From NCBI RefSeq assembly GCF_011801125.1, contig NZ_CP046171.1, positions 496,001 through 560,000 on the forward strand: a stretch of DNA of 64,000 nucleotides. The letters are read 5' to 3'. Below, one piece after another: positions 5,213-51,863 of this stretch (the first letter of the stretch is position 1; every line of letters begins with the position of its first letter). This DNA comes from Nocardia brasiliensis. GTDB taxonomy: Bacteria > Actinomycetota > Actinomycetes > Mycobacteriales > Mycobacteriaceae. The translations under genes and the position numbers were made by a program. Under the pieces are notes generated by a model. That model saw only the letters and a list, made by a program, of their open reading frames with translations, did not search any database and had not been told where the DNA came from.

Positions 5213-5325
5213 GGTCATGAGTACCAGCGTTCAGCCCCGGCTTGCTGGTCGGCAACCCTCCTCCGCGGTGGGGTGCTCCGGGTGACGACCGGGCCGACGC
5301 CCAACCGGGCGCGGCAAGCGCGGAC
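5213..5325 (+). promoter_or_regulatory. SAM-IV riboswitch
   Basis: This stretch matches the actinobacterial SAM-IV class almost base for base as I remember it: GGTCATGAGTACCAGCG at the 5' end, CCCCGGCTTGCTGGTCGGCA in the core, then CGCGGTGGGGTGCTCCGGG, the closing GTGACGACC of helix P1, and the 3' element GCGCGGCAAGCGCGGAC that makes the pseudoknot side. P1 (GGTCAT with GACGACC) has one A-C mismatch compared with the usual pairing. It lies 48 bases upstream of the aminotransferase start on the same strand. By class behaviour, S-adenosylmethionine binding should reduce expression of the downstream gene. Confidence 0.92.
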
Positions 5326-5373
5326 TCGATGAATCTTCCAGATCATGGGTCCCTGAGCCGATGGGATTTTGTG

Positions 5374-49592: not shown

Positions 49593-50390
49593 ATGCTGCT
49601 GACGATCGACGTCCGCAATACCCATATTGTGCTCGGGCTTTTCTCGGGCAGCGGTGCGCATTCGAAACTGGTGCGGCACTGGCGGATCCACACCAATCCG
49701 TTACTGAGCGCCGATGAATTCGCCATGCAGGTGCGTGGCCTGGTCGGCGCGCAGCTGGACGAGGTGGTCGGAGTTTCCGCGCTGTCCACGGTGCCGCCGG
49801 TGCTGCGGGAACTACGCACGATGCTGACCCAGTATTGGGCGCACGTGCCGCACGTGCTGGTGGAACCCGGTGTGCGCACGGGTATTCCGCTGCTGGTGGA
49901 CAACCCGAAAGAGGTGGGCGCGGACCGGATCGTGAACTGCCTGGCCGCCTATCAGCATTATTCGTCGCCGACGATCGTCGTCGATTTCGGCGCGGCCATC
50001 TGTGTCGATCTGGTCTCCGGTAAAGGTGAGTTCCTGGGCGGCATCATCGCGCCCGGCGTGGAGATTTCGATGGAGGCCGTTGTCGAGCGCACCGCTATGC
50101 GCCGGGTCGAGCTGGCCAGGCCGCGTTCGGTGGTCGGTAAGAACAGCATGGAATGCATGCAGTCCGCGGCGGTGTTCGGATTCGCCGGGATGGTCGACGG
50201 ACTGGTGGACCGGATTCGCGACGAGTTCGAGGCCTTCGCAGGCGATGATGTGGCGGTGGTGGCGACCGGCCCGACCGCGCCGTTGATCGTTCCGGAATCG
50301 GAGACCATCGAAGATCACGACCCCTATCTCACGCTGACCGGCTTGCGCCTCGTATACGAGCGCAACCAACGCCGCAAGGGTGTGGGCTGA
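49593..50390 (+). CDS. coaX: Type III pantothenate kinase
   Basis: 265 residues. The ASKHA-fold motifs are [15 protein letters not shown] (with Arg where many homologues have Gly, as in M. tuberculosis), [24 protein letters not shown], and [27 protein letters not shown]. It phosphorylates pantothenate, the first committed step to coenzyme A. It is 18 bases after panD. The ACVD-like ICVD in motif 3 also follows the mycobacterial, non-canonical pattern, and activity in that group is debated. Confidence 0.93.
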
Positions 50391-50451
50391 GTTTCGTGGT
50401 GTCGGGTTCGTCGCACCGACGCGGGCTTGGCGCGCCCGCGTCCGGTGCTGA

Positions 50452-50457
50452 TACACT
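50452..50457 (+). promoter_or_regulatory. -10 element of the cysteine-leader transcript
   Basis: TACACT (preceded by TGA, giving an extended TGATACACT) ends seven bases before GTG 50465, so the transcript should start at the first base of the leader ORF. TTGGCG at 50427-50432 is a possible -35. Confidence 0.55.
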
Positions 50458-50464
50458 CACCGCT

Positions 50465-50506
50465 GTGTATTTCCGCGTGCGCACTCAGGAGTGTTGTCGA
50501 GGCTGA
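50465..50506 (+). CDS. Leaderless Cys-Cys leader peptide
   Basis: GTG 50465 to TGA 50506 encodes MYFRVRTQECCRG, 13 residues with two consecutive TGT codons near the end. It lies directly after a -10 element with no Shine-Dalgarno sequence, so it should be translated from a leaderless mRNA. The two Cys codons (50492-50497) sit at the edge of the first of four complementary segments that precede the cysteine dioxygenase gene. In mycobacteria, leaderless short ORFs with Cys runs are established cysteine-responsive attenuators. The same role here is inferred from layout. Confidence 0.7.
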   Translation: MYFRVRTQECCRG

Positions 50507-50545
50507 CCTGGCCTCGACCGATCGAGGCTGACCACCCGCCCTCGA
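50496..50545 (+). promoter_or_regulatory. Four-segment alternative hairpins, probable cysteine attenuator
   Basis: Segment 1 GTCGAGGC (50496-50503) pairs with segment 2 GCCTCGAC (50511-50518). Segment 2 can instead pair with segment 3 TCGAGGC (50522-50528), and segment 3 with segment 4 CCTCGA (50540-50545). These are mutually exclusive, as in classical 1:2/2:3/3:4 attenuators. In addition AGGA..GTTG around the Cys codons (50487-50496) is complementary to CAACTCCT (50553-50560), next to the dioxygenase GGAG Shine-Dalgarno sequence (50561-50564). Confidence 0.65.
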
Positions 50546-50572
50546 CCGTTCACAACTCCTGGAGATTCGCTC

Positions 50573-51196
50573 ATGCGTTCTTCTGTTCTTTCCCTTTCCT
50601 CCGCACGTGACGACTTTTCGGCTACCCCGCCGCTTGATCGTGCCGTGGCTTCCGCATTACCCACGCGCCTTCGTCCCGCCGACCTGTTGCGGTTGACCGA
50701 CGAAGGCGCCGAAGACGTGCTGGCCGGTCGATACGACCACCTGTTGCCCGCCAATGGCGTCTGGCCTGCCGAGGAACGCTGGGCGGCCCGGCTGCTCGCC
50801 GATGACGAGGTCGATGTCTGGCTGATCAGCTGGACGCCGGGGAAATCCACCGAACTGCACGATCACGCCGGCTCGCTCGGCGCGTTGACCGTGCTCAGTG
50901 GCGCGCTTTCGGAATATCGCTGGAACGGCACCGAACTGCGCCGCCGCATTCTCACCGCGGGCGATCAGGCGTCGTTTCCGATCGGCTGGGTGCACGACGT
51001 GATGCGTGCCCCCGCCCAATCCGTGACCAGTGCCGCGGGAACCGCTGCGGCGGATCCCGCACTGCTCGAACCGACGCTCAGCGTGCACGCGTATTCACCG
51101 CCGCTCACCGCCATGTCCTATTACGAGGTCACCGGCCACGGCACCCTGCGGCGCTCCAGAACCGTTCTCACCGACCAGCCCGAAGGTGACATGTAA
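50573..51196 (+). CDS. Cysteine dioxygenase-type cupin protein
   Basis: 207 residues. The cupin iron site is His96-Asp-His98 (ELHDHAGSLGALTVLSG) with His141 in IGWVHDVM, the 3-His pattern of thiol dioxygenases, which oxidise cysteine to cysteine sulfinate. It follows a Cys-codon leader and precedes a rhodanese, so a role in cysteine/sulfur disposal is consistent. GGAG lies eight bases before ATG 50573. In the M. tuberculosis layout coaX is followed nearly directly by lysS, so this pair is an insertion in the conserved order. Confidence 0.82.
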   Translation: MRSSVLSLSSARDDFSATPPLDRAVASALPTRLRPADLLRLTDEGAEDVLAGRYDHLLPANGVWPAEERWAARLLADDEVDVWLISWTPGKSTELHDHAGSLGALTVLSGALSEYRWNGTELRRRILTAGDQASFPIGWVHDVMRAPAQSVTSAAGTAAADPALLEPTLSVHAYSPPLTAMSYYEVTGHGTLRRSRTVLTDQPEGDM

Positions 51197-51627
51197 TGGA
51201 ACATTTGACTATCGATCAGATGCTCGAGCACGCCCGGGCGCAACTGACCCGGATCTATGCCTTCGAATTGCCGAAGGCGCTCGCCCGTGGCGCGATTCTG
51301 GTCGACATCAGGCCGCAGGCGCAGCGGGTGCGCGAGGGCGCCTTGCCCGGTGCGCTGGTGATCGAGCGGAATGTGCTGGAATGGCGGCTCGATCCGTCCA
51401 GTTCCGCGCGACTGGCATTGGCCACGGAGCACGAGATCGAATGGATCATCGTCTGCTCGGAGGGCTATACCTCGAGTCTTGCCGCGGCATCGCTACAGCA
51501 ACTCGGGCTGCGCAGGGCCACCGACCTGGTCGGCGGTTTCCACGCGCTGAAGGCGGCGGGGCTGTTGCACATCGGAATGCGCGCGCCGCACTTCGCCCGC
51601 GAGGTCGCCGCGCTGGCCTCGCTGTAA
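51196..51627 (+). CDS. Rhodanese-like sulfurtransferase
   Basis: 143 residues forming one rhodanese domain: [38 protein letters not shown], then the catalytic loop [12 protein letters not shown] with Cys87, and [13 protein letters not shown]. It would carry a persulfide on Cys87 and pass sulfane sulfur to a thiol acceptor. Its ATG shares one base with the dioxygenase stop (TAATG), so the two are coupled and probably act in the same cysteine/sulfane sulfur route. Confidence 0.88.
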
Positions 51628-51863
51628 TTGCCAGTTATCCCTTCCAGCTCGAAAGATCCGGGCGGCCAAGGACTTTGGCTGCTCGCTGCAAACCGACGGC
51701 TATTTCGGGCGACGCGGTACCAGGCAAATCCGGCGGGCGAATCGGGCGGATCCGATAGCGTGGCGCGCGGTCGCGGCGCGGGTAGGCGGCCGGGGACTCG
51801 CGCGCCGCTCGTATCGTATCCGGCGGCGGGCGGGCGGCGCGCGAAAGGATTTCCGATGCACGC

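Follow-up and report, generated by a model that had tools for sequence, protein, structure and literature searches.

A conserved two-cysteine leader ahead of a cysteine dioxygenase-rhodanese operon in Nocardia is a candidate translational attenuator

Introduction

Polycysteine leaderless short ORFs of mycobacteria are reportedly the subject of a study by Canestrari et al. (2020, Mol Microbiol 114:93). In PMC9031893, the speed of the ribosome on contiguous Cys codons is described as controlling the downstream gene in this mycobacterial class, and PMC13236596 calls cysteine genes of M. smegmatis regulated by translation attenuation. M. tuberculosis and M. smegmatis have Cys-rich uORFs ahead of cysA2, Rv0485 and nirA (Shell et al., 2015, PMC4633059), and a table in PMC8079986 lists 8 amino-acid leader peptides of Streptomyces lividans. 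A leader before an actinobacterial cysteine dioxygenase (CDO) gene was found in none of the titles or abstract openings among the matches listed by our literature search; the 2020 study of Canestrari et al. may hold one. MSMEG_6096 was set aside as a Bvg accessory factor (coaX-type) with no bearing on CDO.

Here we describe a two-cysteine leader ahead of a CDO-rhodanese operon in Nocardia brasiliensis, its conservation and pairing across relatives, and its retention where the CDO gene has been lost.

Results

A leaderless-type ORF with adjacent Cys codons precedes the CDO-rhodanese operon

In the window, by which we mean the whole stretch of 64,000 nt that was analysed, panC, panD, coaX, the leader, CDO, rhodanese, lysS and lsr2 share one orientation. 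The initial annotation had proposed a leaderless-type leader with two adjacent Cys codons, and its sequence elements can be read directly from the DNA, with TACACT 7 nt before GTG 50465 and an ORF of 13 codons (GTG TAT TTC CGC GTG CGC ACT CAG GAG TGT TGT CGA GGC TGA; Table 1). The end of the leader stop codon and the CDO start are separated by 66 nt. The partner strand of the outer helix, H0, takes in two bases of the CDO start codon, A and T, and 5/6 of the H0 pairs form in the window leader.

Table 1. Features of the leader and the downstream genes (positions in the window)
Feature	Position	Strand	Detail
-10 element TACACT	50452..50457	+	7 nt upstream of leader start codon GTG 50465; direct reading
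Leader ORF, peptide MYFRVRTQECCRG	50465..50506	+	13 codons, ends QECCRG; Cys codons TGT TGT at 50492-50497
Outer helix H0, 5' strand (leader codons 5-6)	50477..50482	+	Partner 50569-50574; pair counts
Strand A, CAGGAGT	50486..50492	+	Within leader codons Gln-Glu-Cys; pairs with 50555-50561
Segment 1, GTCGAGGC	50496..50503	+	5' arm of hairpin 1:2 (A1, A2 alignments)
Segment 2, GCCTCGAC	50511..50518	+	Hairpin 1:2; pairing in 99.8% of cells across 51 Nocardia leaders
Segment 3, TCGAGGC	50522..50528	+	Half of second hairpin, seen in Nocardia and a few others
Segment 4, CCTCGA	50540..50545	+	Partner of segment 3; same evidence
Segment 5, ACTCCTG	50555..50561	+	Pairs with strand A, touches the Shine-Dalgarno sequence
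Shine-Dalgarno GGAG of CDO	50561..50564	+	Direct reading
Cysteine dioxygenase-type cupin	50573..51196	+	Start ATG 50573; PF05995, 41.6 bits (cut-off 23)
Single-domain rhodanese	51196..51627	+	Catalytic-type Cys87 (CSEGYTS); PF00581, 36.1 bits (cut-off 22.2)

Control without a T-tract terminator, as had been expected, agrees with the sequence: no terminator-like site with a T-tract was found in 50300-51800, where shuffles average 1.0, and a trp-type or other terminator-based attenuator was rejected since an intrinsic terminator with a U-tract was not found in this interval. Likewise, a known riboswitch or Rfam leader was rejected as the identity of the element, given that an Rfam 15 covariance-model search of 50380-50620 returned no match at E<=1. 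At the gathering threshold, Rfam gave a single match across the window, a SAM-IV riboswitch at 5213-5326 on the + strand (113.1 bits).

The first gene of the operon matches CDO chains such as 8qfr. Among 133 distinct CDO homologues, H96 is found in all 133, H141 and Y174 in 132 each, and R69 and H98 in 131 each; judged by alignment, H96, H98 and H141 would be the metal-binding His residues, with R69, the probable equivalent of rat R60, and Y174 in the substrate pocket of an enzyme of the Arg type. R73 was dropped as the Arg60 equivalent, R69 fitting better. The CDO stop and the rhodanese start overlap by one base at TAATG, and among the 122 distinct readable rhodanese sequences that accompany a CDO, 121 have Cys at position 87 (4 more were not covered). 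One rhodanese, L147, has Ser at the catalytic Cys position although CDO is present.

The leader is conserved within and beyond Nocardia

The leader is genuine and strongly conserved. Its core 16-mer, GAGTGTTGTCGAGGCT, occurs exactly in 144/148 Nocardia genomes, in single copy save for two copies in G107, and the reversed-pattern control was found in none of the Nocardia genomes listed. One of the four genomes without the exact 16-mer was inspected (L029, G028), and its leader is intact with the stop changed or shifted. CDO itself is present in 150/150 Nocardia genomes searched. In 53 of the 54 Nocardia leaders examined, the 13-codon frame opens with GTG or ATG, and TANNNT lies 6-7 nt before it; in the exception, L020, the start lies five codons earlier with a TANNNT of its own.

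In a family sample that includes Nocardia, 213/301 genomes match CDO at E 1e-8 or better, some of these matches being weak and paralog-like (E about 1e-10 to 1e-16). An ECC leader lies ahead of CDO in 34/40 non-Nocardia loci, from 11 of the 15 genera fetched. Three of the 40 have a different CC ORF (L084, L095, L096), and a CC leader was not found in the upstream DNA of three others (L088, L093, L094), in some of which single-Cys leader candidates were picked out by eye. Eleven of the loci L001-L176 fail the leader regex (L029, L059, L084, L087, L088, L093-L096, L130 and L157), of which L059 and L087 nonetheless bear ECC leaders. The CDO-rhodanese operons L186, L187 and L198 also have apparently single-Cys leader candidates, again by eye, which are possibly altered or decayed sensors.

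A covariance model of 66 short leaders gave 10 matches in 394 genomes of the class, a scan that is no census because known leaders were missed (for example, in the g29 genomes G215 and G230). Nine of the matches adjoin CDO and rhodanese; the tenth, in G453, is marginal (E 0.003) and has neither gene nearby. Scanning the genome of the window for TGYTGYTGY was uninformative, with 767 and 757 matches versus 669 and 661 for the reversed controls. The group g29 is probably Mycobacterium, based on a PE_PGRS-like neighbor of L199. A Cys leader lies ahead of each of the six g29 operons examined, in five of the six of the FCECC type, and neither coaX nor lysS was found within the roughly 3 kb fetched for the six loci. 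Since the leader is kept without these neighbors, leader and operon seem to travel together as a unit.

Both Cys codons turned out to be conserved when relatives were compared, as the initial annotation had anticipated. All 54 Nocardia leaders have two Cys codons, and the pair is TGT-TGT in 87 of the 88 leaders found by CDO homology; for comparison, TGT accounts for 38/140 Cys codons in 34 selected ORFs of the window. The CGA codon is kept in 151/165 leaders, and QECCRG is retained at the protein level in most. Outside Nocardia, 21 of the 34 homology-found leaders have at least three Cys codons, with 21/22 of the extra ones being TGC, and other arrangements occur, FCECC in the g29 loci and RMCCC in L095. 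With TGT-TGT near-invariant and the additional Cys codons mostly TGC, the pair seems to be constrained as RNA and the Cys content as coding sequence.

The end of the leader ORF can pair with the CDO start site

The initial annotation had also described four segments with alternating pairing and a pairing of the Cys-codon region with the Shine-Dalgarno sequence. The segments lie where it had placed them (Table 1), while alternation as the core mechanism was not supported: segments 3 and 4 are missing, by length, in 70/76 distinct non-Nocardia leaders. In this short form there is one hairpin, 1:2, whose flanks CCAGGAGUG and CACUUCCUGG pair up to the Shine-Dalgarno sequence, enclosed by an outer helix of leader codons 5-6 with the CDO start. 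The pairing of the Cys-codon region was confirmed, with coordinates a few bases from those first given, the best match being 50486-50492 with 50555-50561. The shared core is simpler, the last leader codons, including Cys-Cys, pairing with the Shine-Dalgarno region and the start codon.

We counted pairs in two alignments: A1, with 66 of the 70 distinct short leaders (L062, L081, L092 and L141 were omitted as divergent), and A2, with 51 of the 57 long leaders (six non-Nocardia ones were omitted). In A1, 92.8% of cells pair, versus 40.4-48.7% with the partners slid. Cells altered on both sides numbered 37 versus a shuffled mean of 12.1 (0/500), and the covariation score was above all 500 shuffles, in tests that are inflated by the relatedness of the leaders. 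Two of the five A1 covariation measures fail to exceed the shuffles, namely pairs changed on both sides (4 vs 3.1 shuffled, 167/500) and further pair types (22 vs 20.7 shuffled, 108/500). RNAalifold alone recovered hairpin 1:2 from A1 and none of the remaining helices. Within the hairpin, A-U is replaced by G-C at one pair in 6 sequences. The most informative pair is the one between base 2 of leader codon 5 and base 1 of the CDO start codon (U-A 36, U-G 18, C-G 8, other 4 in A1): codon 5 varies in step with the use of AUG or GUG as the start (Fisher test, p = 0.002, for the 65 of 70 short leaders with C or T at this base of codon 5, relatedness uncorrected).

For the long leaders of A2, the fold 1:2 with 3:4 pairs 94.0% of cells and the alternative 1:4 with 2:3 pairs 93.8%. 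All four segments are kept in these 51 leaders, with 98.3-99.8% of cells paired for 1:2, 2:3, 3:4 and 1:4, and the pair types are not above shuffles (494/500). The covariation that had been looked for in the segments was borne out in part: 3:4, with 98.7% of cells paired, has one pair with 2 compensatory sequences, and no compensatory change was found in 1:4 or 2:3 among the 51 Nocardia leaders. The start-codon pair is compensatory in 2 sequences, both with GUG starts.

A ribosome on the Cys codons is predicted to ease opening of the CDO start site

We modeled the cost of opening the stretch from the Shine-Dalgarno sequence to the CDO start, with assumed ribosome footprints and at 30 C (medians, kcal/mol). 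For 78 short forms the cost was 17.0 for free RNA, and placing a ribosome on the leader start, the first Cys codon or the stop gave 12.9, 8.5 and 9.2, respectively; the corresponding values were 16.4, 14.2, 10.6 and 11.2 for 59 long forms, and 14.5, 14.2, 10.6 and 10.5 for the window leader. A ribosome at Cys lowered the cost in 77/78 short and 57/59 long forms. As a ribosome at the stop lowers it nearly as much, discrimination would have to come from dwell time. Only the whole-site opening cost fell under the ribosome masks; the unpaired probability of GGAG, a cruder measure, was not raised (0.29 free and 0.16 stalled for short forms, 0.31 and 0.22 for long forms).

Compared with dinucleotide-shuffled leaders, in 30 loci chosen by hand and with the modeled RNA beginning 3 nt 5´ of the leader start codon, the free cost had a mean z of 2.86, and in 15/30 loci <=1/60 shuffles were as high. 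The window leader is not extreme in this test (z 1.9, 3/60 as high), and there was no excess over shuffles in some loci, such as L089 (z -0.1) and L035 (z 0.4). Taken as a model, the structure at the Cys-codon region is predicted to hide the downstream ribosome-binding site.

The leader is retained ahead of rhodanese after loss of CDO

Repeated loss of CDO under a kept leader provides a natural experiment for asking which gene the putative switch serves. Among 79 named loci, found with a pattern designed to exclude the Nocardia leader form, the leader is followed by CDO and then rhodanese in 59 (L148 is cut before rhodanese), directly by rhodanese in 18, and by a gutted CDO ORF and rhodanese in 2. 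CDO is hence gone or gutted in 20/79 loci, with the leader in the same place ahead of rhodanese. Thirteen of these 20 genomes have no CDO match and 6 have only paralogs of 33-41% identity; the remaining case, one MAG, has a 72% CDO elsewhere in the genome. The upstream gene is coaX in 57/59 loci with CDO and in 18/20 without; the two exceptions among the 20 are truncated by the end of the locus. Pairing persists as well, in 96.9% of cells (341/352) for the 16 CDO-less leaders in A1 versus 91.5% in the other 50, and opening-cost z values for the 7 CDO-less loci compared with shuffles were 3.0 (L103), 3.8 (L119), 3.1 (L122), 5.3 (L129), 4.6 (L132), 2.7 (L158) and 1.3 (L155). A tree of 89 rhodaneses, many of its forks unresolved, needs 5 changes of CDO presence, and its starred branches alone give 3 independent pairs. 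Because leader and pairing persist before rhodanese after CDO loss, rhodanese looks like the lasting client of the leader.

The remains of CDO differ among loci. In L132 and L174 (Rhodococcus xishaensis and R. spongiicola), mini-CDO ORFs of 76 and 82 codons stand between leader and rhodanese and keep the CDO start and end without the catalytic middle; the idea that a stop codon had broken these CDOs was wrong, as both ORFs are open. The rhodanese ORFs of the CDO-less loci L103 and L158 begin with residues resembling the CDO N-terminus of near relatives; judged by sequence, a deletion thus seems to have run from the CDO start to the body of the rhodanese. The MAG G163/G434 has two Cys leaders in one bin, L062 before CDO and L155 before rhodanese.

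Of the 20 loci without CDO, 5 have Cys and 15 have Ser at rhodanese position 87, the Ser loci being L119, L120, L121, L122, L124, L129, L131, L134, L141, L144, L151, L156, L157, L162 and L165. Despite this split, loss of the Cys following loss of CDO was dropped as independent evidence, because the 15 Ser rows form one tree group and the starred branches give only the 3 independent pairs.

Discussion

The leader and its pairing likely constitute a translational attenuator that senses charged tRNA-Cys and turns the operon ON at low cysteine. The basis of this reading observed here is the sequence, the conservation, the pairing counts and the retention of the leader after CDO loss; the transcript start, the stalling, the sign and the coupling of CDO to rhodanese we infer. 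The mRNA would begin at or beside GTG 50465. With ample cysteine, ribosomes would clear the 13-codon ORF fast and the RNA would close, leader codons 5-6 pairing with the CDO start-codon region and CAGGAGT being paired up to the Shine-Dalgarno sequence, with the middle filled by hairpin 1:2 and, in Nocardia, by 3:4. CDO would then be poorly translated, as would rhodanese through the TAATG overlap. Under a shortage of Cys-tRNA, the ribosome would be held up at TGT-TGT and sit over both strand A and segment 1; the closing helix would then open, and the operon would be translated. This sign is expected because, with a single hairpin, a stalled ribosome can only remove the strand covering the start site, and it agrees with what citing papers say of the mycobacterial class.

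The initial annotation had offered the opposite sign as one of two readings. In that scheme, ample cysteine would bring the ribosome to the leader stop, 3:4 (or 1:4 with 2:3) would form, and CDO would be ON against excess cysteine, under Rho-dependent or translational control. Such logic makes metabolic sense for a dioxygenase, and induction at low cysteine would have CDO use up cysteine in times of shortage. The retention of all four segments in the Nocardia leaders and the lower start-site opening cost with a ribosome at the stop are also compatible with it. We nevertheless consider it unlikely, as the non-Nocardia leaders without segments 3 and 4 keep the rest, 2:3 and 1:4 lack compensatory changes, 50300-51800 holds no terminator-like site, and CDO can be lost while the leader stays. 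It is disfavored also because a ribosome at Cys in the one-hairpin form would only remove the strand that covers the Shine-Dalgarno sequence. The other role that had been suggested for the operon, supplying sulfane sulfur under cysteine limitation, fits better than the inverted logic, because the leader remains with rhodanese when CDO is lost.

Two further explanations dispense with cysteine sensing by the ribosome. The RNA might merely hold the start site closed, as a basal setting or in a general stalling response, with Cys codons that are incidental to the pairing sequence. The position of the CC codons inside a near-invariant RNA stretch, with TGT-TGT in nearly all leaders, is what this would predict, but the extra Cys codons of the non-Nocardia leaders, the FCECC and RMCCC arrangements and the sulfur-type genes downstream argue against it, and we regard it as less probable again than the inverted logic. 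Alternatively, the 13-residue Cys-Cys peptide might act as a product, a metal or redox peptide, rather than via ribosome position. The retention of QECCRG in most leaders would suit such a role, under which TGT-TGT, the kept CGA and the start-codon covariation would be without reason, making this the most improbable of the explanations.

With an attenuator that is ON at low cysteine, the operon would be read as a low-cysteine unit of sulfur supply or handling centered on rhodanese, not one of high-cysteine disposal, which is the most economical reading. More tentatively, and at somewhat less than an even chance, the leader may be a starvation-induced switch whose real client is rhodanese, with CDO taking part in sulfur supply, acting on another thiol or a persulfide, or serving partly as a translational relay. 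CDO could be deleted or gutted in frame, with leader, start-site pairing and rhodanese kept, because it would serve such a supply or relay function, and codon 5 and the AUG or GUG start would coevolve because the start codon itself would be enclosed by the switch. If the predicted response is true, a cysteine-responsive ribosome switch governs an enzyme annotated as destroying cysteine in no fewer than 12 genera (Nocardia and 11 of the 15 fetched); the annotated role of leader-linked CDO would be put in doubt, and there would be a direct way to test it.

The surprise of the system is its target, enzymes thought to break down cysteine; its anatomy is like that of a known class. By that anatomy the leader is a candidate translational attenuator of the polycysteine leaderless class, with a predicted cysteine response. 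Adjacent Cys codons lie near the end of the short ORF, and the downstream operon (CDO, rhodanese) is one of cysteine and sulfur. As the mycobacterial polycysteine ORFs are described, they share with this locus a leaderless-type short ORF with adjacent Cys codons, placed first in a sulfur operon, and a structure that should mask the start site downstream. They differ in that the target here is CDO with a single-domain rhodanese, there are only two Cys codons in Nocardia, the pairing reaches the start codon, a second hairpin is present in Nocardia, and the cysteine response is a predicted one.

Compared with S. lividans, the leaders in the table of PMC8079986 resemble the ORF here in being short and, as is predicted here, leaderless, some without a U-tract, whereas none of the 8 is described there as cysteine-dependent. 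The leaderless uORFs of Shell et al., 2015 (PMC4633059) are, like the leaderless-type leader here, conserved, Cys-rich and upstream of sulfur genes, while no CDO locus is among the three in the figure legend. The genome of the window has two further leaderless-type Cys-rich ORFs, MLSNHELMLTRRRTVDLCRLGGCCCLCR (L214, position 720) and MRASGVRLVARRHVDYKRVCSACCLTNSSR (L223, position 860), which lie ~780 and ~640 nt ahead of the first domain matched in a two-domain rhodanese and a sulfite/nitrite reductase, respectively; these leader candidates are comparable to the cysA2 and nirA cases of PMC4633059.
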